Shown in pieces: positions 7,104-38,395 of a stretch of DNA of 64,000 nt. Positions within the stretch are counted from its first letter, which is position 1. The number at the start of each line of letters is the position of its first letter. The stretch covers positions 372,001 through 436,000 of the forward strand of contig NZ_AP018437.1 of assembly GCF_003966975.1 (NCBI RefSeq). The letters run 5' to 3'. Source of the stretch: Pelolinea submarina (lineage in GTDB: Bacteria; Chloroflexota; Anaerolineae; Anaerolineales; Anaerolineaceae). The notes beneath the pieces were generated by a model that saw only the letters and a program-made list of their open reading frames with translations, was not told where the DNA came from and did not search any database. The translations under genes were made by a program, and so were the position numbers.

Positions 7104-8450
7104 TTACAAGTTGATTGAAAAAGCTTTGCGGCTGATCCAGATCAGGTACACCATGCTTAAGATATAAGTGCACATGGTTACCAGGCCCGCACCCACAATT
7201 CCCATGAGCGGGATCATAACGAGGTTCAACAATGCGTCCCCAATTACCAGCGCGAGGATGTAAAGCGTATATAAACCGGGGCGGTTACCCTGCATGATGA
7301 TCCCTCTCATCGCGCCGTACCCCGAATCGATCACGATGCCTATGACGATTACGGTAAAGATGATCCAACTTTCCAACAAATAAGAAGAATCGGCGAATAA
7401 TTTAACAATCAGCGGGTAGATAACCACGGAGATCCCCCCAACCGCGATCATGAGCGGGTAGAAAAACTTGCGGAAACTTTTCGATAAGGATTCGATCTCT
7501 GTCTTGTCGTTCTTGGAAAAAGCCCTGCCAATCATGGGATTTAACGACAATTGCGCCACTACGGTAATTTCGTATAATCCTTCGGCTAATACCGCAGCGA
7601 AACTGTAAATTCCAACGTGCACGTCTGTCAGGAAAACGCCGATCATCAACACATCCACTTTGGTGTTAATGCCGATCAGCAGCCCGCTCAAAAATCCTTT
7701 GGACCCGAAAGTCAGGTGTTCTTTTGCCAGCAGCCGGAAATTAGTCAGCCGCGAGAGCGGCAGCACTTTCCGGAAAGTATAAATCAGCAGACAGATGAAC
7801 AGAATAACTTCACAAACGCTCAAAGAAGCCGAGATATAACGGTTATCCAAGTTCAAGGCAATAATGATCCCGATAATCAGGAAAAGCAGAATATATCGGA
7901 GGGAACGAAAAAAAGAAAAAGCCTTCATTTCGTCCAGCCCATTGAGTACATTAATGAGCACTTTGTTTAATGAGAAGAAAACCAGGCTTGGCAGCGTTAG
8001 GAATAACCCGGTTGCCACGTCCGGGCTGTCAAGCAAGAATCCCAACGGCTTGATGAGCAGCAGGCTTATAACCGTCGCGGGAATTGAAATGACAATGATC
8101 AAGATCAATGCTGAAATGGTGATCTCGGAACAATATGAACGGTCTTGATTATGGTAGGAGACCAACCGCAGCACTGAATGGTGCAAACCGAACACGACAA
8201 TTTGGGAAAAGATCAGGTAGATCGCGTACACCTGGCTGAATACGCCCAGGGCTTCTTCACCCCGTGTATAGACGATCATGGCGTTCGTGATAAAACCGCT
8301 GGCCGCCAGAATGACCAGGCTCAACATATTCCAGGATAAACCCTGTCCCAACCGGCTGTTCATGGAGGTCTTGAGTTTTTCCGCGAGCTGAGGATTTTTT
8401 TTGCCAAGGAAATCGAATAATCTCGTTAGTAAATGATTGATGCTATCCAT
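7104..8450 (-). CDS. Polysaccharide/lipid-linked sugar flippase, Wzx/MOP superfamily
   Basis: The 448-residue protein has about 12 to 14 membrane helices, with the fold and composition of oligosaccharide flippases (Polysacc_synt / MATE-like). It would move undecaprenyl-linked sugars to the outer face of the membrane. The N-terminal 50 residues are amphipathic and cytoplasmic, followed by the characteristic 'GQGLSWNMLSLVILAASGFI' first helix. The longest reading frame starts at a TTG at 8489, overlapping the acetyltransferase gene. The ATG at 8450, preceded by GGA at a sensible distance, is preferred. It is the last gene of the leftward glycan cluster and stops 20 bases from the convergent DUF6020 gene. 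Confidence 0.85.
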   Translation of the reverse strand: MDSINHLLTRLFDFLGKKNPQLAEKLKTSMNSRLGQGLSWNMLSLVILAASGFITNAMIVYTRGEEALGVFSQVYAIYLIFSQIVVFGLHHSVLRLVSYHNQDRSYCSEITISALILIIVISIPATVISLLLIKPLGFLLDSPDVATGLFLTLPSLVFFSLNKVLINVLNGLDEMKAFSFFRSLRYILLFLIIGIIIALNLDNRYISASLSVCEVILFICLLIYTFRKVLPLSRLTNFRLLAKEHLTFGSKGFLSGLLIGINTKVDVLMIGVFLTDVHVGIYSFAAVLAEGLYEITVVAQLSLNPMIGRAFSKNDKTEIESLSKSFRKFFYPLMIAVGGISVVIYPLIVKLFADSSYLLESWIIFTVIVIGIVIDSGYGAMRGIIMQGNRPGLYTLYILALVIGDALLNLVMIPLMGIVGAGLVTMCTYILSMVYLIWISRKAFSINL

Positions 8451-22094: not shown

Positions 22095-22110
22095 TTTTCC
22101 TCTTTTCTTT

Positions 22111-22287
22111 TAACCACAGATGGACACAGATAAAAGCTGAAAACCGATTTTTTTTGCTTGATGCACACAGATAGTGGTGGACATTGGACTACCTGTATTT
22201 CCAGCCTTTTTTCTTAATCACAGATGGACACGGATAAACACGGATAAACACAGAAAAGCCTTTTCTTTGGTTGATGAACACAGATAG
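22111..22287. repeat. ACAGATGGACACAGATAAA-type short tandem/intergenic repeat
   Basis: Copies of CACAGATGGACACAGATAAA and related CACGGATAAACACGGATAA units appear at 22114-22134 and 22218-22255, with GATGCACACAGAT at 22161-22173 and GATGAACACAGAT at 22273-22285. Similar units occur at 24183-24203 and 24290-24300, directly upstream of the lysozyme start. Repeats like this are scattered between genes in many bacteria. Together with the next entry they fill the 355-base gap 22095-22449, in which no gene is seen. Confidence 0.75.
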
Positions 22288-22449: not shown

Positions 22450-23748
22450 TCAACCCTCAATCGCCCCGATCGCGCCGGAATGGTCGACTTCCACGCTATT
22501 GACCGTATTGGACCCGTAGTAAGTAACGGCCGGCGAAGCGTACCCAATTTCCAGTAGCTGCAGAAAGTGAAAGCCAACACCCGGATAACCGGCATAAATA
22601 GCTTGCACACCGGCACGTTCGGCAACCGAAAACGCAGCCCAAAGGGAATCTTCAGAAGGCAAAATGACCGAATCCAGCCCAATACCGATAGAGCGGATAA
22701 TGGCTGAGGTTTCGTTGGTGCCGGAATGAAATTGAAGTTTTACTTCGACCTCATCCACACCAATCACAAATTCCACACGGTTGTCCTCGGAATTATTCCA
22801 TGCGCGCCAGGCACGCACGGAATACGTCCAGGATTGGGTGCTTTCGTGACGGTAGAGCGTGCGGGGCACGCGGTTGTAATAATTCCACACGAAGCGTTTC
22901 TCTTTGGTGTCGCAGATCGTGCCAGCCGCGGACGTGCGCACGGTGCCCAGGTAACGGCAATTCAAGGCGCCGCTCTTGCAGTAGATCCCGTCCTGGCGCA
23001 CGATGGCCGTGGCGCGCAGCGTGTCGTTGGACCAGGTCGAGCAGGCTAATGCCAGTGTGCCGGCATTATCGTACAGCCAGATATCCGCGTTCGTGTCGGC
23101 CGGCATGGACGAAAGATCCAGCGATAGCTCGCTGAAAGTGTACAAGCGCCAGCCACAGCCTGGCACGTACAAGGCGATCCGGTTGCCGGTGTGGGGTGTG
23201 AAGTACACGAACGAGGAAGCGGACACGTCGGTCGAAGGGACGCTCACGCCGGTGGAGACAGTCAAGCGCCCCTCGCAGATTTGCGGTTCCACATAACCGA
23301 GCAAGCTCTTGATGTGGACTGCTAATTCTGTTCGGATGCTGTCCTTCTCAATTTTGGCGCCGTCCCAATAAAAGCGGCCAACGCGGCGCTGGTTCTCCCC
23401 TTCCGTAGAAGACATTGACACACTGAGTGTAAAGGTGGTGGAATCATCCGCGCGGTTGGCGAAAATATAGTAGGTATTCTCCGTTCCGGAGGGCTTATGG
23501 TCTGTGGCCAGGTCAACGTTGGCCACTGCCTGAACCATATAGCCGGCAATCATGAGCGATACCGGTTCGGTGGCTGAGGCGACGATGCGCACCTGGTCGG
23601 TGTTGAGGCGTTCGATCTGCAGCCGGGTTTCGTAGCGTTCGAGCAGCGCGGCCAGGTTGACCGCATCGTCGCCGGATTGGCCGAGGAAAAGGGCGTCAGA
23701 ACGCAGGGAATTGTAATGACTGGCGAGGGTGGCATCGCCGGCGGACAC
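22450..23748 (-). CDS. Phage tail-fibre/receptor-binding-like protein, probably lacking its original N-terminus
   Basis: The 432-residue frame begins with a GTG giving SAGDATLASHYNSLRSDAL, a sequence usually found some 10-15 residues inside tail proteins after a 'W.dG..vsAgdas' opening. The middle is beta-rich with Trp and Tyr (CGWRLYTFSELSLDLSS), and the C-terminus is 'FHFLQLLEIGYAS...GAIG', typical of tail appendages that bind a host surface. There is no ribosome binding site, and a stop codon stands immediately upstream in this frame. The sequence therefore appears joined by deletion to the truncated lysozyme gene. Confidence 0.65.
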   Translation of the reverse strand: MSAGDATLASHYNSLRSDALFLGQSGDDAVNLAALLERYETRLQIERLNTDQVRIVASATEPVSLMIAGYMVQAVANVDLATDHKPSGTENTYYIFANRADDSTTFTLSVSMSSTEGENQRRVGRFYWDGAKIEKDSIRTELAVHIKSLLGYVEPQICEGRLTVSTGVSVPSTDVSASSFVYFTPHTGNRIALYVPGCGWRLYTFSELSLDLSSMPADTNADIWLYDNAGTLALACSTWSNDTLRATAIVRQDGIYCKSGALNCRYLGTVRTSAAGTICDTKEKRFVWNYYNRVPRTLYRHESTQSWTYSVRAWRAWNNSEDNRVEFVIGVDEVEVKLQFHSGTNETSAIIRSIGIGLDSVILPSEDSLWAAFSVAERAGVQAIYAGYPGVGFHFLQLLEIGYASPAVTYYGSNTVNSVEVDHSGAIGAIEG

Positions 23749-24169
23749 TGATCATGTAGGACTGCCAGAACCCGCCGGAGGAGTAGATGATCGGCTTGAC
23801 TTTGAGCTCATTCTCGATCACGTCGCAGAACGCTTTCACGTCCGCGCACAAGGCTGCCCCGCTCTTGCCGGCGACTTCGAGATCGATCACCGGCCGCATG
23901 GTGAATGGCAGGTCCCGCACCACACCGAGGAATCCGGCGGCTTGCACTTCCGGATCCACGTGGGTGCGGTAGAAGTGATACGGGGCGCTGTAGATGCCGT
24001 TCTCAGCACAGCCCCGGGCGTTGGCTTCGAGATTGTCATCCACATAGATTTCCGTTTTACCCAGCGGGTATTCGGTCGCTTTATAGAAACAAAAGACCAC
24101 GCCGGCGGCTTTTACTTTCGGCCAATCGATATCCGACTGCCAATGACTTACATCGATTCCTGGTTTCAT
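23696..24169 (-). pseudogene. GH25 (Chalaropsis-type) lysozyme, C-terminally truncated
   Basis: Residues 1-139 match glycoside hydrolase family 25: MKPGIDVSHWQSDIDW (first catalytic Asp), 'GVVFCFYKATEYPLG', 'YSAPYHFYRTHVDPEVQA' and the catalytic DLE in 'MRPVIDLEVAG'. The domain breaks off after IIYSSGGFWQSYM, whereas GH25 domains normally continue about 50 residues more with further strands. The remaining 17 residues (ISVRRRCHPRQS) are the tail-fibre sequence read in the wrong frame. The start has a good AAGGAAAAAA site. It was probably the phage endolysin, cleaving peptidoglycan glycan chains, and is likely inactive now. Confidence 0.75.
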
Positions 24170-24182
24170 TTTTTTCCTTTCT

Positions 24183-24531
24183 TAACCACAGATGCACACA
24201 GATAATTTCCTAATGTCATTCCGAGCAAAGCGAGGAATCTCGGCCAAATTTGAGATTACGCTTTCTGACGGTAGATTTTCCTTATTTGATGCACACAGAT
24301 TTGCGCTCCCTAGGCAATGCTCCCTGAGCCTGTCGAAGGGAGCAGGAGAGTCATTGCGCAACATTCCCTCGGGGAAGGAATCTCGGCCCGAATTGAAAAG
24401 ACGCGTACTTGCCGTGCCAGCCGAGATCCTTCGGTCGCTCTGCTCCTTCAGGATGACAATAAAGGGAGAGTTGTCATTGCGAGCTTTGCGCTCCCTGAGC
24501 TCGTCGAAGGGGCGCAAGGCGAAGCAATCTC
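24183..24531. repeat. Cluster of dispersed palindromic repeats between lysozyme and large terminase
   Basis: The 520-base gap 24170-24689 holds no gene. It starts with CACAGATGCACACAGATAA units. A large inverted element follows from TGTCATTCCGAGCAAAGCGA (24214) to CCTTCAGGATGACA (ending 24458), with an internal CCCTGAGCCTGTCGAAGGG. A partial copy follows, with TTGTCATTGCGAGC at 24471 and GCGAAGCAATCT ending at 24531. The DnaA-box array (24590-24689) fills the rest. Confidence 0.75.
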
Positions 24532-24589
24532 AGTTGCGTACTGGCTATTTCTGCTGATCGTGTAGAGTGCCTTATAGAATGGTTTGTGT

Positions 24590-24689
24590 TTATCCACGCT
24601 TTCTCCACGCCTTTTCCACAGGCTTATCGACAGCTTATACACAGGCTTTTCCACAGAGTTATCCACATTTCCATATAGAGTTATCAACA
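24590..24689 (+). other. Helically phased array of DnaA-box-like nonamers (origin-like or titration element)
   Basis: Eight nonamers related to the DnaA box TTATNCACA lie on the same strand: TTATCCACG (24590), TTCTCCACG (24601), TTTTCCACA (24612), TTATCGACA (24624), TTATACACA (24635), TTTTCCACA (24647), TTATCCACA (24659) and TTATCAACA (24681). The slot at 24670 is degenerate. Start-to-start steps are 11, 11, 12, 11, 12, 12 and then 22 (two steps), so all face one side of the helix. Copies 24635 and 24659 are exact matches. No dnaA, dnaN or obvious AT-rich unwinding element is adjacent. Confidence 0.6.
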
Positions 24690-26261
24690 TCAGAAACCCT
24701 TATCCAAGTCGTCCAAAGGGTCGCGCGCCTGGATGATGTAGGTCGGCCGGCTGACGGCCCATTTCTTCTTGTCCAGCTCGGCGCACAGGGCGGCGGAAAT
24801 GAGCAGGTCATCGTGCACCAGGTCACCGGTGGCGGGATCGCGGCGGCCGTCCGGGACACCCCAGCGGACGCGCTTCTGTGGGCCGGGCAGGATTTCGAAC
24901 TCGCAGAATTGAATCTGGTTCCAAAAGATATTCGCTTCCTGCTCCTGCAGGAAATCATTTTCCACAGCGAGGTCCACAGGGCCACTCACGCTGTAGTCTT
25001 TGTACCTGCCGGAGTCGATGATGCCGAGGAAGTCCCACAGGAGATCCGATTTTGTACGGACGTTGAACTCGAAGGGGATTACCTTATCGCCCAGCGAAGC
25101 GCTGAGAAAAGAAGTTAGGCCAGCGCCCACGCCGGTGCAGTCCACCACCAGGTAGCGCACGTTGAACAGTTCGGCCATAGCTTTGATAGCGCCGTATAGC
25201 GTGGAATGTTTTACTCCTACCCACTCGCGCCGCTGGACCACCTTGTAGGTGGGCTTGTTGATGAGCGGGTCGTCGACGCTGGCCAGGTCGACTTCGAAGA
25301 CAGTCAGGGCGGTACTGTCGCGCTTGGGGTTGGCCAGGCTCTCTACCTCGCCGCTTTCCGGGTCGGCGATCACGGCCTCATCTTCGCCGGCGACGTCCAG
25401 CGTCATGGCGTACAGCTTCCCGGGCAGCGGGGATACCTGGGGGGCATGCTCGCCTTTCATCATGGCCACGCGGGCCGGCGGGAACAGCCCGCCTTCGGCG
25501 TCAATCTCTTCCGAAAAATATTGTGTTTTGATCATGGGATGGTTACGCCCAAGGCGGGCAATCTGGCCGGCGACAAAGTCGCCGTATGCCGGTACTTCGC
25601 GGCTGACGTCGTCAGCGGTGAGCACGAACACGCGCCGCTGGCCGTCCTGTTTTTCGGCCTTGCGCGCTGCGCGCAGCTCACGGGCCAGCAGGGTGCGGCT
25701 GGTCCAGGCGGTGCCCCAGAACACGCGTGTGGCGTTGGTGCTGGCGGCCATGGGGGCGATGTCCTTGTCGAACTTGGCCGGCAGCACGTCCTGGGCTTCG
25801 TCCACTTCCAGCAGCACGTTGGCCGTGGCGCCCACGATGTTGGACCGTGGTTGTCCGGAGAAAAAGTAAATGCGCGCCTTTCCGCAGCGGTAGATATATC
25901 CGGATTCCTTGGTCCATAAGTGCTTGGCGATCAGGTTGGAATCCAGGACACGTTCCAGCCGGCGCATGGCGTTGAGGGTCTGGGGTTTCCAGGTGGGCGA
26001 GACTTTGACCAGTTCAGCGTTCATGAGGTAATAGCAGCAAAGTAAATAGGTTTCGAGCTGGGCCTGCAGCTCGTTCTTTCCGGATTGGCGCGGGAACATG
26101 ACCACGAACGAGCGCCCGGCGCCCTCCTGTACGGAGCGGAAGACCGCTTCGGCCACACCGCGCTGGTAGTCTCTTAACTTGATGGTTGAACACGTATCGA
26201 TGAATGTATCCACGTCGGCCATGGCGCGGCGCAGCTGCAGCAGTACCTGATTGTTTGTCAT
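24690..26261 (-). CDS. Phage terminase large subunit
   Basis: The 523-residue protein packages DNA into proheads. The N-terminal ATPase has a Walker A-like PRQSGKNE (near residue 58), Walker B 'VLLEVDEAQD' (near 150) and coupling motif 'VFWGTAWTSRTL'. The C-terminal RNase H-like nuclease shows the Asp-containing strands 'YAMTLDVAGEDEAV' (near 278), 'LVVDCTGVGAGL' (near 360) and the final 'VHDDLLISAALC' (near 490). ATPase and nuclease both look intact. It starts 12 bases after the holin-like gene stop. No portal or capsid gene follows, which is unusual and points to a remnant. Confidence 0.88.
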   Translation of the reverse strand: MTNNQVLLQLRRAMADVDTFIDTCSTIKLRDYQRGVAEAVFRSVQEGAGRSFVVMFPRQSGKNELQAQLETYLLCCYYLMNAELVKVSPTWKPQTLNAMRRLERVLDSNLIAKHLWTKESGYIYRCGKARIYFFSGQPRSNIVGATANVLLEVDEAQDVLPAKFDKDIAPMAASTNATRVFWGTAWTSRTLLARELRAARKAEKQDGQRRVFVLTADDVSREVPAYGDFVAGQIARLGRNHPMIKTQYFSEEIDAEGGLFPPARVAMMKGEHAPQVSPLPGKLYAMTLDVAGEDEAVIADPESGEVESLANPKRDSTALTVFEVDLASVDDPLINKPTYKVVQRREWVGVKHSTLYGAIKAMAELFNVRYLVVDCTGVGAGLTSFLSASLGDKVIPFEFNVRTKSDLLWDFLGIIDSGRYKDYSVSGPVDLAVENDFLQEQEANIFWNQIQFCEFEILPGPQKRVRWGVPDGRRDPATGDLVHDDLLISAALCAELDKKKWAVSRPTYIIQARDPLDDLDKGF

Positions 26262-26620: not shown

Positions 26621-27019
26621 TTAATTTCCAGCGGGGTCGCTGAGTCCAAGGTCATGGGCTACCTCTCCGATGGCTTGAGATAAGACGCTGATTACGTCGC
26701 CGTTGTCGCCGGCGATAAGCTGTTGGGTGCGCAGCAGGCCGGCCAGGCGGGTGGAAGCGGCGCCCAGTGTGTTGAGGGCCTGCGACCAGGTGTCGAGGCT
26801 TTGGGCGTCTGTGTCGGCATATTCGAAAACGCGGCGGATGATCACGCGCAGGAGAGCGATCTCATCGGTGAGGCCGTCGGACAAAGTGGTGCTGAGGTCT
26901 GCCAGTTCGAGGTTATTGAAGCGATGGGAATAAAACCCGTGCTTCAGGGCGTTGGTGTTGCCTGGCTGGCCGCCACGTTTGCGTTTGGCGGTGACGTTTG
27001 TTGTGACGTTTGCTGTCAT
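26621..27019 (-). CDS. Phage small terminase-like protein
   Basis: A protein of about 132 residues starts MTANVTTNVTAKRKRGGQPG and has the basic 'GGQPGNTNALKHGFYS' motif that opens many terminase small subunits and related phage proteins. A helical region (LSDGLTDEIALLRVIIRRVF) follows and the protein ends SDPAGN. The reading frame is open upstream to a GTG at 27124, but that stretch is Pro-rich and lacks similarity, so the ATG at 27019 is chosen; the start is not certain. It is the first gene after the operator-covered promoter, and the large terminase follows 12 bases after the next gene. Confidence 0.65.
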   Translation of the reverse strand: MTANVTTNVTAKRKRGGQPGNTNALKHGFYSHRFNNLELADLSTTLSDGLTDEIALLRVIIRRVFEYADTDAQSLDTWSQALNTLGAASTRLAGLLRTQQLIAGDNGDVISVLSQAIGEVAHDLGLSDPAGN

Positions 27020-27230
27020 GTTGGCTTCGTTGTGTGCTTCCTTGTTTATGACTTCCTTCGGTGCGGGCCGGCCCGGGCGGGTGGAGGGGTGCCTGGCGGG
27101 CGCCAGCGGCGCGGGAGGGGGCACGCCGCTGTGCCGCTGCGTTGTCTGGCTACTTGGTTTCCAGCCGCTCCCCGGTCCGGCTTGTGACCCTGTTCGGGCG
27201 CCGGCCCGCGGGGGAGGTGTGAAATAGAAT

Positions 27231-27389: not shown

Positions 27390-27788
27390 ATGGAAGTTCC
27401 ACGCCATTGGAGATTACAAAAACAACGCTACAGCCTGACGGGTGAGGTCTGCCCGCATTGTGACGCGAAAATTTTTCCGGCCCGCGATGTCTGCCCCGAG
27501 TGCGGCGGCGAGGCCAAAGAACCCTTCCGCTTTAGCGGTAAGGGCGAAGTCTATTCCTACACTGTCATGAACAACGCTCCGGCCGGCTTCGAGCGCAGCT
27601 TGCCCTACACCGTCGCGCTGGTCAAACTGGCCGAAGGCCCCACCGTCACCGCCCAACTGACCGACCTGGGCGACACCCCCGTCAACATCGGCATGCCGGT
27701 TGAGATGGTCACCCGCCGCATCAAAGAAGACGGCGACGAGCGCGGCATGTTAATCTACGGTTACAAATTCCGCCCGGTATTGGGATAA
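27390..27788 (+). CDS. Zn-ribbon OB-fold protein (DUF35 / thiolase-accessory type)
   Basis: The 132-residue protein starts MEVPRHWRLQKQRYSL, has a rubredoxin-like zinc ribbon (CPHCDAKIFPARDVCPECGG, residues 21-40) and an OB-fold with 'GEVYSYTVMNNAPAGF'. This is the DUF35 architecture of acyl-CoA-associated proteins that partner thiolase-like HMG-CoA synthase or acetoacetyl-CoA enzymes. No thiolase or HMG-CoA synthase lies nearby, so its partner must be elsewhere. An AAGGAG site lies seven bases before the ATG. It ends in a strong terminator. Confidence 0.9.
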   Translation: MEVPRHWRLQKQRYSLTGEVCPHCDAKIFPARDVCPECGGEAKEPFRFSGKGEVYSYTVMNNAPAGFERSLPYTVALVKLAEGPTVTAQLTDLGDTPVNIGMPVEMVTRRIKEDGDERGMLIYGYKFRPVLG

Positions 27789-28792: not shown

Positions 28793-29593
28793 ATGAAATC
28801 AATTGGAACATTCCCGTTTGGGCAGTCAGTACATGAAGTCTCACAAAAAGACCGCACTTCGAAGGACGTGTTTGTTTTAGGCGTTTATGCAAGTGCAGTT
28901 CACGCACGTTGGATAAACAAAAGCCAGAAAACTGTTGTCAATGCTCTTGCTGTTGCGAGTGAACCATATATCTTTTGGCGTGGCGAAAATGCGGAATCCA
29001 TAATTCAGCAAATCGTCATTCCGGAAGAAATAGGGAGACTCATTCCAGCAAAACAAGATTTCAACGGCCCATCGGGAATTGCCCTTGATAAGTTGATCTT
29101 GCATCCTTTGGAATTGGAACGTCAAAATGTCTGGTTGTGTGATTTAGTGCCTCATAGTTGTGTAAATCCTTCTCAGCGTAAAGCTATTGAGCGAGCATAT
29201 TTACCGATTGCATCAAAATATGGATTAGCCAAACCCACTGTTCCACCTGTTCCAACGGTACTTGCTGATGATAATCGTCGAAAGGCGATTTTGGCTGAGA
29301 TAATTGAGTCAGAAGCAAAAATTCTAATATTGCTTGGCGATAAACCTATACAATGGTTTCTTTTTCCTTTTGATAATCGTTGGAGAAAACTCTCGGATTT
29401 TGGGCATGCTGGTCAGTCATACGGTCAACTACACAAGGCGCGAATAGGTGATAAGGAAATAGATGTTTTACCGCTCGCTCACCCCAGGCAAATTGCTCGG
29501 CTTGGTCAATCATCCGCTGTTTGGTACGATAATCATGAAAAATGGCTCAAGCAATCAGCAAGCAAGGTTGCACAGTATTTAAAATCTGGCTGA
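28793..29593 (+). CDS. Uracil-DNA glycosylase superfamily-like protein
   Basis: The 266-residue protein contains 'FVLGVYASAVHARW' near residue 27, resembling motif A (GxxPS/A) of the UDG superfamily, 'LCDLVPHSCVN' near residue 115, 'ILILLGDKPIQWFLFP' and a late 'LPLAHPRQIARLGQ' resembling the motif B H-P-S/R loop. The fold looks like the three-layer UDG sandwich, but family 4/5 iron-sulphur cysteines are not evident. It may remove damaged bases or act in defence against modified phage DNA; neither is shown. Confidence is moderate because motif A lacks the usual catalytic Asp/Glu. Confidence 0.55.
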   Translation: MKSIGTFPFGQSVHEVSQKDRTSKDVFVLGVYASAVHARWINKSQKTVVNALAVASEPYIFWRGENAESIIQQIVIPEEIGRLIPAKQDFNGPSGIALDKLILHPLELERQNVWLCDLVPHSCVNPSQRKAIERAYLPIASKYGLAKPTVPPVPTVLADDNRRKAILAEIIESEAKILILLGDKPIQWFLFPFDNRWRKLSDFGHAGQSYGQLHKARIGDKEIDVLPLAHPRQIARLGQSSAVWYDNHEKWLKQSASKVAQYLKSG

Positions 29594-29641
29594 CGCTGTG
29601 TCAACCAGGCGCGCTGCGTTAGGGTTGAATAGATGATCAAA

Positions 29642-29670
29642 CAAAGTCCCCATTCGGGGGTTTTGTTATT
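29642..29670 (+). terminator. Terminator-like hairpin after the UDG-like gene
   Basis: AAAGTCCCC, ATTC and GGGGGTTTT form a short GC stem with flanking A and T runs ending TTTTGTTATT, about 50 bases after the stop codon. Confidence 0.65.
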
Positions 29671-29685
29671 TAACAATCCTGCATT

Positions 29686-29789
29686 CCTCCCCTATTTTTC
29701 GAAGCTCTTTGCAAGAGCAAAGAGCGGAGATGCACATTCCTGAACAGCCTCGAGCTGTCCCCGGAATGGGTACTCCATTGTGGGGGAAG
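29686..29789. repeat. Palindromic repeat, long form (copy A)
   Basis: Outer arms CCTCCCC and GGGGGAAG enclose two inner hairpins: GCTCTTTG...CAAAGAGC and CATTCC..CAGCCTCGAGCTG..GGAATG. The same organisation is seen at 30617-30735 and 38528-38640 with substitutions in the stems, so a three-way junction is possible. Confidence 0.8.
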
Positions 29790-29810
29790 CCAGCGTTTTT
29801 TTCGAAAGCA

Positions 29811-30542
29811 TTATTCGGTTTTTGAGAATAGATGTTTGTGATAAAGGCCCGGATTCATTAAAAAGTCTTTGGTGATTTGATAATGCTCGGTCTCTTCATA
29901 AATAACCTTTGTAATCCGTTCTTGGTCAAAGCTGTAAATAATCGCTTCGGGATAACTGAGAATGATCGGCGAATGCGTGGCAATGATGAACTGCGCCTTT
30001 CCTGTCTTCTCAAGTTCATGCATCAGCACCAGAAAAGACAATTGCCTTTTCGGAGATAAGGCGGCTTCCGGTTCGTCCAATATATAAATACCTTTTTTGA
30101 ATTTATTTTCAAATAACGCCAGAAATGCTTCCCCATGGGACTGGCCGTGCAATGACTTGCCGCCATACGCGTCATACACGCCCGGTTCATCCGATTCCAG
30201 ATTGTCGATATATGTGGCAAAGTTGAAGAAGCTTTCCGCCCTCAGAAAGAAGCCATCCGTTACCTTGGGAAGCCAGGAAAACCGCAATATCGATCCAAGA
30301 TTGGATTCGGTCTTATGATATTGGTAATAATGGTTCCTGTTCCCGCCCGCTACATTGAACCCGCAGTTTTCAGCAATAGCCTCGAGCAGCGTCGATTTCC
30401 CGGATCCGTTTTCTCCCACAAAAAAAGTCACATTGCTGCTGAATTCCATGTTGATTCCTTCGGAGAAAGCCGGAATATTGAATGGATATTCTTGTGCGTT
30501 AGCGGTATTTTCGACAGTTCGAATTGAATTAAGGAAGGGCAT
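29811..30542 (-). CDS. AAA/ABC-type ATPase of the RecF/SbcC-like AAA_15 class
   Basis: The 243-residue protein has Walker A GENGSGKST (near residue 44), an ABC signature-like LHGQSHGEA (near 131), Walker B 'GIYILDEPEAALSP' and the switch His in 'FIIATHSPIILSYP'. It lacks a long coiled coil, so it is a compact head domain. Stand-alone ATPases of this type are common in Bacteria and some belong to defence operons such as retron or OLD-like systems, but here there is no recognisable effector next to it. It is bracketed on both sides by long-form palindromic repeats. Confidence 0.85.
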   Translation of the reverse strand: MPFLNSIRTVENTANAQEYPFNIPAFSEGINMEFSSNVTFFVGENGSGKSTLLEAIAENCGFNVAGGNRNHYYQYHKTESNLGSILRFSWLPKVTDGFFLRAESFFNFATYIDNLESDEPGVYDAYGGKSLHGQSHGEAFLALFENKFKKGIYILDEPEAALSPKRQLSFLVLMHELEKTGKAQFIIATHSPIILSYPEAIIYSFDQERITKVIYEETEHYQITKDFLMNPGLYHKHLFSKTE

Positions 30543-30616
30543 CTCGACCTCACGGATCGCTATTTTGTTTATCTGAATTGTACCTATAAAGAGTTAATCA
30601 ATCCTGACAATGATTT

Positions 30617-30735
30617 TCCCCCCTATTTTTCGAGGCTCTTTGTAAGAGCAAAGAGCGGAGATGCCCATTCCGGAACAGCCTCGAGCTGGTACAGGAATAG
30701 GTACTCCATTATGGAGGAGGCTAGGAGGGGGCGGG
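30617..30735. repeat. Palindromic repeat, long form (copy B)
   Basis: Near-identical to copy A over the inner hairpins (GCTCTTTG...CAAAGAGCGGAG and CATTCCGGAACAGCCTCGAG), closing with GGAGGAGGCTAGGAGGGGGC. Lies between the divergent AAA ATPase and the HEPN-like gene in a 307-base gap that holds no gene. Confidence 0.8.
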
Positions 30736-30849
30736 CAGCACAGTGATAATAGAGCAGTTAAGTGGGCGCTGGTATCAAAATGAATCTGTATAATTATGGA
30801 TGATTGATTTCTCTTTATCCAAGAATCTCTTGTTGAGAAAAGGAAAAAC

Positions 30850-31782
30850 ATGAAATTTCGGCCAGTTTATAACCTTGAATTTCCTTCTTGGTGTCCCGAA
30901 TTAAATATAGTTGGATATCGGTTTTTACGAGTGGATGATTACCAACAGAAATTGCAGAATCTTCAACACGTAATATCATACTCTTCCGAATTTGCTATTA
31001 AGAAGAATACAGGTACACATTCCTTAACAGCATTTGTTGAAATACCTAAGAATGAAGAAAAAGCGATTTTTAATTGGTCAGGAAGAGATAATATTGCTTT
31101 AATGGATGTTTTATTATTACTAACTCTTTTTACCGGCCGAGATGTGTTTACACTTGGACCTCAAACAGATAAGCAGATAATAAGGACTAGCGATGTAATT
31201 ATTGCTGATCCAAGAGTCTTTGATTGGGGTGGAACTCTCAGGTGTTCGATTCCTTATAAGAAACAGACAATTGACCCAGAACCTTATGGATATGATATTG
31301 GATTCGAGGAGGGGTTAAATAAGATTTACAAATTAATAAGCAGTAATGATTGGCAGAAAAAATATAAAGGTGGATATTTCCTATTATTAGCAAAGAGTGC
31401 TTTTAAACATCAAATACTTGAATCAGCATTTATTCAATGCTGGACGATTTGGGAGCATTTATTTGCTATTCTCAATTCTCAATGGCTTTCGGGCAAGAAA
31501 ATACAACAAATAGGTTCGGCAGACAAAATATCATTTCTTCTAGTGGAATTTGCTTTGACTGGTGATATAGACACCGCATCAAGAAAAAGAATTGAAACTT
31601 TGACTGAAATTAGAAATAGGTTAATTCATTTTGGGAGATTTCCAGAACGTAGCTCCTCGTATAATGATGCAGTTTTGTTCATACGATTGACTGAATTTAT
31701 TCTATCGAAAATTCTCGGCCTTTCACCATCAAACGTTTTTAACACTGTCAATAACCTTGAAAGGTTTTTAAGGAATGAATAA
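30850..31782 (+). CDS. HEPN-like protein of unknown function
   Basis: The 310-residue AT-rich protein has an N-terminal beta-rich region (MKFRPVYNLEFPSWCPE) and a mainly helical C-terminal half. The sequence 'LTEIRNRLIHFGRFPE' near residue 262 fits the HEPN RNase motif R-N-x3-H (Rx4-6H), as in ApeA and many toxin or defence nucleases. A central 'WEHLFAIL' helix is also typical of HEPN-type domains of DUF4145 or ApeA relatives. It probably cleaves RNA or is a derived, inactive relative. It heads three AT-rich genes on one strand. Confidence 0.55.
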   Translation: MKFRPVYNLEFPSWCPELNIVGYRFLRVDDYQQKLQNLQHVISYSSEFAIKKNTGTHSLTAFVEIPKNEEKAIFNWSGRDNIALMDVLLLLTLFTGRDVFTLGPQTDKQIIRTSDVIIADPRVFDWGGTLRCSIPYKKQTIDPEPYGYDIGFEEGLNKIYKLISSNDWQKKYKGGYFLLLAKSAFKHQILESAFIQCWTIWEHLFAILNSQWLSGKKIQQIGSADKISFLLVEFALTGDIDTASRKRIETLTEIRNRLIHFGRFPERSSSYNDAVLFIRLTEFILSKILGLSPSNVFNTVNNLERFLRNE

Positions 31783-31966
31783 TTGGTCAATCTTTGAATT
31801 TCATTTATAGTAATTTGGAATCTGGCATAAAATCAATTTCATTTAGTTGTTCAACCTGAATATTTACAGGAATGATCTAAACATACATTCAATAAAAAGT
31901 CTTGTTTATTGCGAATTATGTCTTATTTATAACAATTCTAAATAATTATTGTAAATCAAACGTCTG

Positions 31967-31990
31967 TATAATTGACTATAGAAAGTCAAT
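31967..31990 (+). promoter_or_regulatory. Promoter with overlapping palindrome before the DUF4145 gene
   Basis: TATAAT (31967-31972) is directly followed by ATTGACT, ATAGAA, AGTCAAT, a perfect seven-base inverted repeat (31971-31990) over the expected start site. A minus 35 box is not clear. The 239-base gap 31783-32021 otherwise shows nothing. Confidence 0.5.
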
Positions 31991-32021
31991 GAATAGAATA
32001 AAAATTCGTAGGGATTGAAAA

Positions 32022-32693
32022 ATGATTTGTCCTCATTGCGGGGTTGCGTTTCATGAAGATTGGAGTTTGGTTGCAAATGGTCCGGTTTGTTTCGATGGAA
32101 CTATTGGTACTGGGATTGAGTACGACATATGTCCAGAATGTAATGAACCTATCATAAGAGTTGTTCACGGGCCTGTTGAGAATGAAGACTTTTTGGAAGA
32201 CGATAATGAAGAGGTGATATTAGATGATAAAAAAATCGTCTACCCATATTCCATTGAAATAGGTTTATCTGAAGATATTCCTGATATCTACAAAGAGGAT
32301 TTTATTGAGGCTATGAAACTTATGTCCCAAAGCCCCAAAGCTTCTGCAGCATTAAGCCGTCGGCTATTGCAAAAACTTCTCATAGATGAAGCAAAAATTA
32401 AGGGAGCTTCATTAAGTATTCAAATAGAAAAATTCTGTTCTAATGATGACATACCTTCGGTATTAAAAGAATCTGTTGACGCAATTAGAAATATTGGTAA
32501 TTTTGCGGCACATCCGTTGAAAGATAAAAATACTGGTGAGATAATCGAAGTGGAACCTGGGGAGGCTGAATGGTCGTTAGATATTGTGCGTGGACTTTTT
32601 GATTATTTTTTTATACAACCTGCTCGTTTGCAGCGTAGAAGAGATGAACTAAACATCAAGCTGAAATCAATGGGGAAGCCTTTGCTGAAATAA
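32022..32693 (+). CDS. Zinc ribbon-DUF4145 protein
   Basis: The 223-residue protein has an N-terminal zinc ribbon (CPHC at residues 3-6, CPEC near 40) and an acidic linker, then a helical DUF4145 domain from about residue 90 with 'SPKASAALSRRLLQKLLI' and 'AIRNIGNFAAHPLKDKNTG' and the final 'WSLDIVRGLFDYFFIQP'. DUF4145 belongs to the HEPN-like all-helical group and occurs in restriction-modification systems and nucleic-acid-related proteins. It has its own promoter with a palindrome. It is AT-rich, like the genes on either side, and lies 239 bases after the HEPN-like gene. Confidence 0.85.
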   Translation: MICPHCGVAFHEDWSLVANGPVCFDGTIGTGIEYDICPECNEPIIRVVHGPVENEDFLEDDNEEVILDDKKIVYPYSIEIGLSEDIPDIYKEDFIEAMKLMSQSPKASAALSRRLLQKLLIDEAKIKGASLSIQIEKFCSNDDIPSVLKESVDAIRNIGNFAAHPLKDKNTGEIIEVEPGEAEWSLDIVRGLFDYFFIQPARLQRRRDELNIKLKSMGKPLLK

Positions 32694-32825
32694 ACCTCGA
32701 TCAAGGATATGTAAACCATCCTGAATTGATATGAAGATTGAATAGCAGAAATCCTTCAAAGATTTACTGTGCTGGAAAAAAGCATTACATAATTAGCATC
32801 ATTATGCCTTCAACCTTTAAAAAAC

Positions 32826-33758
32826 ATGAAACTATATAAATATTTCGGTCCCGATATTCTCGATAAAGCTTTTTCGTCTAAAAAATATTTATCATTAAAA
32901 TGTGGCTATCCTAAAGATTTTAATGATCCTTATGAACTATTCTTGACAATAGATTTTAATGAACAGCCAGAAATCCTAGCGTTCTATTCAGATATCATTG
33001 GTGAGATAGTCCAATTGCCTACTACTTGTTTTTCTCAATCACCATCCATTATTCCAATGTGGTCTCATTATGCCCAAAACCTAGCAGGATTTGTAATTGA
33101 GATTAATGAAGAAAATCTTGCAAAACAATTCCCGAAAAGCAGGTTTGGGGATGTGGATTACAGAGAAAAGCCAGATGATTCACTTCAATACAGTCTTCAT
33201 AAAGCTTTTACAACTTTAAAACCTCGGCACACTTATTCCCTTTTTAATGAAGTTTTAGGAATGGCATATTTTTCAAAGAATATTTGCTGGAACTATGAGC
33301 TAGAACGTCGCATGGTTATTGACCCCGATGAAACCAGAGAGAGTAATGGATTAATACTTATTGATATACCCATTAATTGCGTTAGTGCCATCATTTGTGG
33401 ACCTCGTGCTAATCTAAAAACGAAAGAAGCATTAAGTAAGCAAGCTAATAGATTTAAATGTAATTACTTCGAAATGAAAATTGGTCATAGTTCAATAACA
33501 CCATTCTTTGTAAATAGAACGGGTGACTCATATATTTTCAAGGAGGGGAAATTATTACCTCCATCAAAATTTTGCATAATGTGCAAAGAACCATTGGGAA
33601 ATACAGATACAAAAGTATGTTCTTGGTGCTCAATTAATGAATCAAATAGAGCTTCGGCAGCAGTTAAAAATCCATTCCGAATGCTTGATAGTATTGGATT
33701 GCTAGAGTCTTATCTCAGAGACATGGATGAAATTACCCAAGAACATCAGAAGAAATAA
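32826..33758 (+). CDS. DUF2971 protein with C-terminal zinc ribbon
   Basis: The 310-residue protein starts MKLYKYFGPDILDKAF and has the DUF2971 core 'YPKDFNDPYELFL' (near residue 36) and 'IPMWSHYAQNLAGFVIEI' (near 77). A later 'AYFSKNICWNYELERRM' fits the family. A zinc ribbon CIMC...CSWC (near residues 250-270) is appended, which many relatives lack. DUF2971 proteins are frequent in variable islands beside toxin or defence genes, and their activity is unknown. It lies 132 bases after the DUF4145 gene and is similarly AT-rich. Confidence 0.85.
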   Translation: MKLYKYFGPDILDKAFSSKKYLSLKCGYPKDFNDPYELFLTIDFNEQPEILAFYSDIIGEIVQLPTTCFSQSPSIIPMWSHYAQNLAGFVIEINEENLAKQFPKSRFGDVDYREKPDDSLQYSLHKAFTTLKPRHTYSLFNEVLGMAYFSKNICWNYELERRMVIDPDETRESNGLILIDIPINCVSAIICGPRANLKTKEALSKQANRFKCNYFEMKIGHSSITPFFVNRTGDSYIFKEGKLLPPSKFCIMCKEPLGNTDTKVCSWCSINESNRASAAVKNPFRMLDSIGLLESYLRDMDEITQEHQKK

Positions 33759-35823: not shown

Positions 35824-37086
35824 ATGAAACGTAAATTTTATATATCTATTCCACAAATCCTGTTGATCGTCATCATTTCTGCGCTGCTAACGGCAGTGAC
35901 CGTTCTGGCCGCCAGCGGCACGACCGATGCGCCCGCCGCACCGGGCAGCACGACTTCCTACACCCTGGAGGATATCTACCAGCGCCTGATTAACGGGACA
36001 GCTGGCTCACAAAGCGCCTTCACCGAACCCGCGGTCGCCCCCGGAACGGGCAGCATGCATTCCCTCAATGATATTTACGCTGTCATCCCGGATGCCGGCA
36101 GCGATGTCGCTGGGGTGGATGGTTCCAGGACTGTCGATCTTCCCGATGGGATCTATCGCTCGAATTCAGCTACCTGCAACGACGCCAATCTGATCAGGGA
36201 CAATATCAAACATGGCGTGACCATTTTTGGCGTGACCGGTATCTACCTTAACGGCTGGTCCATATACAGTAGAGCAGAAGATCCCCTTCTTTCAGTATCT
36301 ATGCTCAGCGCTACGGATGGCTGGGCTGTAGGAGAAGGGGGCAATATCTATCATTACGATGGTACGACCTGGAGCAGACACACCACCACGGCAGAAAGAT
36401 CTGACCTATGGTCAGTCGACATGCTCAGCGCCACGGATGGCTGGGCCGTGGGATCTGGCGGCCGTATCTATCACTACGACGGTACGACCTGGAGCAGGCA
36501 TACCACCACGGCAGAAGGAAAAGCCCTTCACTCAGTTTTCATGGTCAGTGCCACGGATGGCTGGGCCGTGGGAGAAGGGGGCTATTTCTATCACTACGAC
36601 GGCTCGAACTGGAGCCTTCGCGCCACCACGGATGAGGGAATAACGCTTTGGTCGGTCTCCATGGTCAACGCCACAGATGGATGGGCTGTGGGAGAAGAGG
36701 GCAATTTCTATCACTACAACGGCTCGACCTGGAGTTGGGGCGAAAGCGTATCCCCTGGATTAACCATTTGGTCGGTCGACATGGTCAACGCCACGGCTGG
36801 CTGGGCCACGGCACGAGACGGCTGGATCTACCGCTACGACGGCTCGCATTGGAGAACGGACTATATGACTGTGGAGGGAACGAGCCTTTACTCGGTCGAC
36901 ATGCTCAGCGCCACGGATGGCTGGGCCGTGGGTGTTTACGGTATTATCTACCACTACGATGGCGTGGAATGGAGTCTGCACACCACCATTCCACAGAGGT
37001 CGATGCTTCGCTCAGTCTCCATGCTCAGCGCCACGGATGGCTGGGCCGTGGCAGATGATGGCCGCATCTATCATTTATTTGATTGA
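35824..37086 (+). CDS. Secreted seven-repeat beta-propeller-like protein, first copy
   Basis: The 420-residue protein has a signal peptide (IPQILLIVIISALLTAVTVL), then a conserved N-terminal module (SYTLEDIYQRLINGTAG, MHSLNDIYAVIPDAGSD) of about 140 residues found in secreted Chloroflexota proteins. Seven repeats of about 40 residues with the core 'SATDGWAVGEGGNIYHYDG' follow (from residue 155 onward); the last is shorter. Seven repeats of this length predict a seven-bladed propeller related to YCF48/BNR or sialidase-like blades. The blades are highly similar in DNA as well, so they arose by recent internal duplication. Likely exported; binding partner unknown. Confidence 0.8.
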   Translation: MKRKFYISIPQILLIVIISALLTAVTVLAASGTTDAPAAPGSTTSYTLEDIYQRLINGTAGSQSAFTEPAVAPGTGSMHSLNDIYAVIPDAGSDVAGVDGSRTVDLPDGIYRSNSATCNDANLIRDNIKHGVTIFGVTGIYLNGWSIYSRAEDPLLSVSMLSATDGWAVGEGGNIYHYDGTTWSRHTTTAERSDLWSVDMLSATDGWAVGSGGRIYHYDGTTWSRHTTTAEGKALHSVFMVSATDGWAVGEGGYFYHYDGSNWSLRATTDEGITLWSVSMVNATDGWAVGEEGNFYHYNGSTWSWGESVSPGLTIWSVDMVNATAGWATARDGWIYRYDGSHWRTDYMTVEGTSLYSVDMLSATDGWAVGVYGIIYHYDGVEWSLHTTIPQRSMLRSVSMLSATDGWAVADDGRIYHLFD

Positions 37087-37114
37087 CATATCATTAACAA
37101 ACTTGGGAGAATAC

Positions 37115-38395
37115 ATGGATAAACACCCTTCGGTCATGTGGAGACACTTCATCAAAGCCCTGCCGCTGACGCTGGTTGCCATGCTGCTAACGGCAGTGAC
37201 CGTTCTGGCTGCCTCCGGCACGACCGACGCGCCCGCCGCGCCGGGTAGCACGACTTCCTACACCCTGGAGGACATCTACCAGCGCCTGAGCAACGGGACA
37301 GCCGGCTCTCAAAGCACCTTCACCGAGCCTGCGGTTGCCCCGGGCACGGGAACTATGCATTCCCTCAACGATATCTATGCTGTCATCCCGGATGCCGGCA
37401 GCGACGTCGCTGGATCGGATGGTTCCAGGACTGTCGATCTTCCCAATGGGATCTATCGCTCGAATACGGCAACCTGCAACGACACCGACCTGGTCGCCGA
37501 AAACGTCAAACATGGCGTGACGCTGTTTGGGGTGACGGGCACCTATGAAGGTCCCGGATGGAATTTGTATAGCATCACGGCAGAAGGATCCCTCATTAGT
37601 TCAATTTCCATGCTCAGCGCCACGGATGGCTGGGCTGTGGGGGAGGGTGGCAGGATCTACCACTTTGACGGTTCAACTTGGAGCCTGCACACCACGACTC
37701 CGGAGGGAACGTCCCTTCTATCAATTTCCATGCTCAGCGCCACGGATGGCTGGGCTGCCGGAAATTGGGGCCATATTTATCACTACAACGGATCGAGCTG
37801 GAACCTGGATACCACTTATCCCGAAGCAAGCAGTATTTGGTCGATTGACATGCTCAGCGCCACGGATGGCTGGGCAGTGGGGTATTATGGCTATATCTAC
37901 CACTTTGATGGTTCAACCTGGAGCCTGCATACTACAACTCCGGAGGGATTACCCCTGATTTCTGTGTCCATGCTTAGCGCCACGGATGGCTGGGCTTCGG
38001 GGACGAGTGGCGGGATCTACCACTATGACGGTACCGACTGGTACCTGCACACCACTGCTCCGGAGGGAACGATCCTTCAATCAATTACCATGCGCAGCGC
38101 CACGGATGGCTGGGCTGCGGGGACGAGTGGCAGGATCTACCACTACGACGGTACCGACTGGTACCTGCACACCACGGCTCCGGAGGGAACGACCCTTCAA
38201 TCAATTTTCATGTTCAGCGCCACGGATGGCTGGGCCGTAGGGTTTTATGGCTATATCTACCATTACGACGGTTCAACCTGGAGCCTGCATACCAAAGTTC
38301 CGGGTTTTATAGACTTATATGCCGTCGACATGCTCAGCGCCTCGGATGGTTGGGCCGTCGGAGCATATGGCCGCATTTATCGTTACGTTGATTGA
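37115..38395 (+). CDS. Secreted seven-repeat beta-propeller-like protein, second copy
   Basis: The 426-residue protein starts MDKHPSVMWRHFIKALP with GGGAG six bases upstream, and the signal peptide region matches the first copy almost exactly (MLLTAVTVLAASGTTDAPA). The same N-terminal module is followed by seven repeats with core 'SATDGWAVGEGGRIYHFDG', some carrying 'HTTTPEGTSL' linkers. Two repeats (starting near 37941 and 38061) are nearly identical at DNA level. The longer frame from 36917 overlaps the first gene and is not used. The pair is a tandem duplication with shared secretion signal and fold. Confidence 0.8.
   Translation: MDKHPSVMWRHFIKALPLTLVAMLLTAVTVLAASGTTDAPAAPGSTTSYTLEDIYQRLSNGTAGSQSTFTEPAVAPGTGTMHSLNDIYAVIPDAGSDVAGSDGSRTVDLPNGIYRSNTATCNDTDLVAENVKHGVTLFGVTGTYEGPGWNLYSITAEGSLISSISMLSATDGWAVGEGGRIYHFDGSTWSLHTTTPEGTSLLSISMLSATDGWAAGNWGHIYHYNGSSWNLDTTYPEASSIWSIDMLSATDGWAVGYYGYIYHFDGSTWSLHTTTPEGLPLISVSMLSATDGWASGTSGGIYHYDGTDWYLHTTAPEGTILQSITMRSATDGWAAGTSGRIYHYDGTDWYLHTTAPEGTTLQSIFMFSATDGWAVGFYGYIYHYDGSTWSLHTKVPGFIDLYAVDMLSASDGWAVGAYGRIYRYVD

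Follow-up and report, generated by a model that had tools for sequence, protein, structure and literature searches.

What is a row of DnaA-box-like nonamers doing directly behind a phage terminase gene in the chromosome of Pelolinea submarina? The genome (G000) is a single 3,519,887-bp contig, and the window, the whole 64,000-nucleotide stretch analyzed, covers its positions 372,001-436,000. A first-pass annotation proposed that the array might be the replication origin of an integrated element, a DnaA titration site, or a simple repeat with no function. We consider, with moderate confidence drawn from comparing sequences, that the array would be a platform for a DnaA oligomer at the origin site of an immobilised, probably vertically inherited element derived from a prophage.

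The array and its conservation

The row of nonamers in 11-12 base steps, with two exact boxes and one degenerate slot, is present as first described (Table 1). Seven nonamers are within one mismatch of TTATNCACA, the eighth has two mismatches, and the successive steps are 11, 11, 12, 11, 12, 12, 11 and 11 bp. The boxes had been thought to lie on one helix face, which is incorrect, because the mean step of 11.4 bp drifts by ~0.9 bp per step relative to a 10.5-bp helix. Head-to-tail contacts between DnaA molecules are favored by spacings of 2-4 bp in E. coli oriC (PMC5742627) and of 2 bp in T. maritima (PMC10316083), and the 2-3 bp spacers of the array match this favorable range. Its sequence and spacing are compatible with holding a predicted DnaA oligomer.

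Table 1. Features of the array and the surrounding element, in window coordinates.
Feature	Position	Strand	Remarks
Host guaA	19272..20825	+	Left flank common to G001 and G003
Final small gene of element before host guaA	21774..22094	-	
Conserved structural gene of element	22450..23748	-	Possible tail or adsorption protein
GH25 lysozyme (endolysin)	23696..24169	-	Truncated by deletion
Deletion junction	23748..23749		7,987 bp missing relative to L252 3261/11248: rest of lysozyme, portal, capsid, others
Remaining terL-lysozyme gap	24170..24589		Dispersed genomic repeats; iterons and AT-rich core there in relatives
DnaA-box array	24590..24689	+	Eight nonamers and one degenerate slot, same strand, 2-3 bp spacers
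Nonamer TTATCCACG	start 24590	+	
Nonamer TTCTCCACG	start 24601	+	Two mismatches
Nonamer TTTTCCACA	starts 24612 and 24647	+	
Nonamer TTATCGACA	start 24624	+	
Exact DnaA box TTATACACA	24635..24643	+	TTATGCACA in L252 and L253, differing at the N position only
Exact DnaA box TTATCCACA	24659..24667	+	Unchanged in L252 and L253
Degenerate slot TCCATATAG	24670..24678	+	4/9 bases differ in each relative (L252, L253)
Nonamer TTATCAACA	start 24681	+	
TerL, intact	24690..26261	-	PHROG terminase large subunit
Small conserved phage gene, 102 aa	26274..26582	-	Between TerS-like gene and TerL
Terminase small subunit-like gene	26621..27124	-	Weak PHROG hits
Host OB-fold (ChsH2-like) gene	27390..27788	+	Right flank, also in G003

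The array holds seven same-strand boxes within 100 bp; when the window was shuffled 200 times with dinucleotides preserved, the count never exceeded three. A genome-wide search for other phased clusters, which had been suggested as a check, leaves it standing alone: the genome has five phased box pairs, four of which belong to it, and there is no second such array in the 3.52-Mb sequence. An 80-aa open reading frame on the minus strand (24448-24690) begins at the terL stop and spans the array, but a coding reason for the boxes was rejected since they shift frame, the frame stops early in L253, and no family matched. An RNA element was rejected as well, as an Rfam search at the array matched no family.

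Two metagenomic IMG/VR contigs, L252 and L253, have intact head clusters and TerL proteins 94% identical to that of Pelolinea; such contigs carry no host name. Both have the array at the same place, after the terL stop. The first ~95 nt past this stop align without gaps among the three sequences, and beyond that the alignment of the gap between terL and the lysozyme gene breaks down, the rest having been rebuilt by dispersed repeats. Among the seven nonamers compared, 5/63 positions differ in L252 and 1/63 in L253. This corresponds to 92% and 98% identity to the window, compared to 77-79% at terL fourfold sites, and measured against that divergence of 21-23%, for which fourfold sites are an imperfect neutral yardstick, the conservation has P = 0.005 (L252) and 1e-6 (L253).

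These comparisons with relatives bear directly on whether the array is a neutral expansion of a short tandem repeat that resembles DnaA boxes by chance. Tandem Repeats Finder does detect a weak 11-12 bp periodicity, and the spacers are conserved along with the boxes (1/17 changed). However, a neutral repeat is improbable because the phasing and the nonamers persist in both relatives, where the degenerate slot varies at 4/9 bases and one nonamer substitution falls at the free N position. In addition, boxes return at the same terL-lysozyme gap in diverged lineages.

The chromosomal origin

GC skew was followed over sampled stretches plus the complete 200-528 kb and 2.02-2.18 Mb. Over 200-528 kb it reaches its minimum at 327,024, and the opposite switch is at ~2.06-2.10 Mb, half a genome off. 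The predicted oriC has five DnaA boxes at 326,618-326,694, and the 40 bp that are weakest in this region lie at 326,917. The same gene neighborhood also accompanies box clusters in many other members of the family. The array (396.6 kb) is a second box cluster, separate from oriC (326.6-327.0 kb) by 70 kb. No AT-rich unwinding region was found near the array in G000, L252 or L253, where the weakest 40 bp equal the genome median. The skew profile, put forward earlier as a way of seeing replication start at the array, has no change at that point.

That the array is itself the chromosomal origin might be argued from its having more boxes than the predicted oriC and from dnaA adjoining neither of them. 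However, the skew minimum, the five boxes and the weakest 40 bp are all away from the array, and it is the predicted-oriC neighborhood that carries box clusters across the family. We rejected this explanation on the skew and the separate cluster, and it is extremely improbable. The first-pass annotation was thus right that this is not the ordinary oriC arrangement and that dnaA is not adjacent, the gene being at contig position 431, ~396 kb away. A tie between the array and the dnaA promoter was also rejected, as dnaA at the contig start has no box cluster beside it.

Second DnaA-box clusters, which are possible titration sites, were also seen in G081, G013 and G080 (L156, L158 and L155, respectively). 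In the first two genomes the cluster is ~29 kb from oriC, with a VWA gene on one side and a gene for an ABC-type ATPase on the other.

The head cluster and its phage-type module

The array starts at the first base past the stop codon of terL, which belongs to a prophage-derived head cluster with the order TerS-like gene, 102-aa gene, TerL, lysozyme, portal, protease-capsid fusion, then others. Structural genes had been noted as missing here, and they are, because 7,987 bp between the lysozyme gene and a later gene have been lost relative to L252. TerL is present in 100/147 genomes of the family and in 55 of the 64 good genomes, nearly always in single copy (exceptions with several terL matches include G010 and G166). 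G000, G001 and G003 have flanking host genes in common, and the head cluster of G003 has a deletion differing from that of G000. No integrase was seen among the annotated open reading frames of L079, and GenBank yielded a single free phage, with a TerL identity of 30%. Judged from its genes, the best explanation is an immobilised, probably vertically inherited, prophage-derived element that may resemble a gene transfer agent in Pelolinea-related Anaerolineaceae. Our literature searches found nothing relevant on gene transfer agents in Chloroflexota and no paper on this head cluster, which the locus brings to attention in most Anaerolineaceae.

The window has other features of note. Dispersed intergenic repeats (TTAACCACAGATGCACACAGATAA, CCTGAGC..GTCGAAGG, CATTCCGAGCAAAGCGAGGAATCTC) fill the two gaps at 22100-22260 and 24182-24560. 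Next to the element, 28793-33758 is a candidate defence island with UDG-family, AriA/PtuA-like AAA ATPase, DUF4145 (PD-T7-4-like) and DUF2971 (PDC-S31-like) genes, and the genes at 36301-38303 are built of 120-bp tandem units (SATDGWAVGEGGNIYHYDGTTWS repeats).

Found at the terL-lysozyme gap in other relatives is a module of palindromic iterons around an AT-rich core, accompanied by trinucleotide repeats and, at some loci, by DnaA boxes. In G001, G002, L254, L255, L257-L260, L264 and L283, the gaps contain palindromes such as AATCGGAAAAATTCCGATT and the order CTGCTGCTACTGCT / AT-rich / AAGCAGCAGCAG, although some loci miss pieces; L261 has different palindromes in the same layout. Of the matches to the iteron TCGGARAAAYTCCG in G001 and G002, 6/6 fall in the gap. 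Iterons occur together with DnaA boxes in G002 (4 boxes), L264 (5-6), L254 (2) and L255 (1), and boxes occur without iterons in L256 (3, opposite orientation) and in L263 and L265 (2). Iterons flanking an AT-rich core are absent from G000, L252 and L253, and the remaining gap in G000 has no stretch resembling an unwinding region. In the TerL tree these three form a clade that is sister to L254/L255, which retain iterons and 1-2 boxes.

The boxes are enriched at this site: at least two strict boxes are found in 9/17 terL-lysozyme gaps, whereas control windows reach this number in 2/1631 cases and windows from other parts of the relatives' contigs in 0/327. In most family members terL has no boxes nearby, and Leptolinea, G012 and G159 have box clusters elsewhere within the head cluster. 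Same-strand triple clusters in the element number five, against an expectation of 0.3 that counts every cluster as background and takes each genome as 3 Mb. In G083 terL is ~590 kb from oriC, and in G016 it is ~2 kb from a box cluster.

Further arrangements were seen. In G159 (L139 5575-5618) four DnaA boxes of alternating orientation lie inside the terL coding sequence, and L215 and L251 have a similar cluster. In G016 (L084 9956-14330) a box cluster that is the putative oriC of that genome is ~2.4 kb from terL, with the head cluster rearranged around it.

The same module is also found inside genes. L267 is an 18.8-kb circular contig (123-bp terminal overlap) with an integrase gene and the same head genes, and its 221-aa gene (7266-7931) has the palindrome GAGTCGGAGAAACTCCGACTC and another of its kind, along with TAG repeats and AT-rich DNA. 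Homologous genes in L282, L284, G010 and G034 have this iteron/trinucleotide/AT-rich layout as well, and these modules can be aligned to those in the terL-lysozyme gaps of immobile elements. Across 161 loci, a search for AT-rich DNA bracketed by two similar palindromes gave 10 hits, of which four are in such genes, four in terL-lysozyme gaps and two elsewhere. The encoded proteins have a winged helix. Because their matches to phage replication proteins are weak, we infer an initiator role from layout and fold; the palindromes could instead be operators or RNA hairpins. Few family genomes have the initiator-like gene. It was not found in G000-G003; for MAGs, which are incomplete, such absence is no proof. 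Since G001 and G002 retain iterons without it, another factor may use them. Separately, the initiator-like protein of L272 (1158-2045) carries additional C-terminal sequence that weakly matches the N-terminal domain of DnaA (E 0.049).

Operators would fit an alternative in which DnaA bound to the array decides how far transcription runs on from terL into the lysozyme-portal-capsid genes, coupling particle production to the DnaA level. The array is in the gap ahead of this run, and the boxes in Leptolinea are immediately before the capsid gene. However, neither within the array nor past it is there a promoter-like site on the strand that is read (2 found in the region against 1.5 expected), the G159 cluster is within terL, and in G000 the array is still present with the downstream genes deleted. 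We consider such a switch unlikely.

A second alternative is that the array acts as a sink that titrates or inactivates ATP-DnaA soon after initiation, its location in a phage remnant being incidental. Early copying would be expected because the array is 70 kb from oriC. Same-direction boxes without an unwinding region fit this role, and so do the precedents: datA has same-direction boxes near oriC, and initiation is held back by clusters of boxes in B. subtilis and Streptomyces (PMC5742627). In some relatives, moreover, another box cluster is found outside the element at 20-30 kb from oriC. However, the array is bound to the phage element and not to a chromosomal distance, recurring in the head cluster of other genera, and its site coincides with the origin-like module of relatives. 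On balance a sink seems less likely than a remnant origin.

A proposed remnant origin and its known counterparts

In our reading, the element's origin survives in G000 as its DnaA half, the array, with the phage initiator, iterons and unwinding region lost. A DnaA array at the very site where related immobile prophages keep a putative phage-type origin suggests that the host initiator took the origin over. The proposal of an origin of an integrated element gains weight for the locus, where relatives have a phage-type module and the array is conserved, and is weaker for the G000 copy, which has no AT-rich unwinding region, iterons, initiator gene or skew switch.

The relatives present several states, namely iterons only, iterons plus DnaA boxes, and DnaA boxes only. 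The simplest history would start with an ancestral phage whose origin lay inside its replication-initiator gene as a pair of palindromic iterons enclosing trinucleotide repeats and an AT-rich core. The immobile elements would have come to carry the module between terL and the lysozyme gene without an initiator gene, DnaA boxes would have accumulated there, and in the clade of G000 the iterons and core would then have gone, leaving 7-8 boxes. ATP-DnaA is predicted to bind head to tail along the boxes, with their 2-3 bp spacing. In intact relatives, replication may fire from the gap and the boxes may have replaced the initiator; the platform could assist a local start of replication and in this way provide DNA to be packaged. 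In G000, binding without firing is likely because no unwinding region is left, and because 8 kb of head genes are deleted as well, this copy probably only collects DnaA.

A fuller model is that the origin of a domesticated prophage swapped initiators, losing that of the phage and being rebuilt on host DnaA boxes, such that a gene-transfer-agent-like element is amplified under DnaA control. We put this forward tentatively, as a possibility. If true, it would reveal how an origin of replication can pass from one initiator to another. We found no literature joining phage, DnaA box, terminase and iterons. The natural variants of the cluster could also be used to study DnaA cooperation and titration outside model bacteria.

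In lambda-type phage origins, the gene of the O initiator itself contains the iterons and the AT-rich DNA. The relatives L267, L282, L284, G010 and G034 have the same arrangement, an AT-rich core between palindromic iterons within an initiator-like gene, whereas the Pelolinea elements have the module between terL and the lysozyme gene with no initiator gene around it, and G000 retains only DnaA boxes. Repression of initiation, or hydrolysis of DnaA-ATP with a bending protein, is characteristic of datA-like sites. In its sequence the array resembles datA and the B. subtilis and Streptomyces clusters as a non-origin group of same-direction boxes near oriC, but its place is in a prophage-derived element, together with which it recurs. 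With the oriC arrays of E. coli and T. maritima it has in common same-direction boxes at a spacing that favors DnaA oligomers (PMC5742627, PMC10316083), whereas the G000 array has no unwinding region or skew switch and the chromosome has its own oriC.

The proposed analogue is the Bartonella gene transfer agent, in which domesticated phage head genes are accompanied by a phage-derived origin that amplifies nearby DNA by run-off replication (PMC2697382). That origin adjoins a phage helicase gene, and the paper does not mention DnaA (PMC2697382), whereas the element described here is known through its genes and has predicted boxes for the host initiator between terL and the lysozyme gene. If the intact elements amplify from this site, they would add to Bartonella a second example of a domesticated phage joined to an origin of its own, and this one would be run by DnaA.
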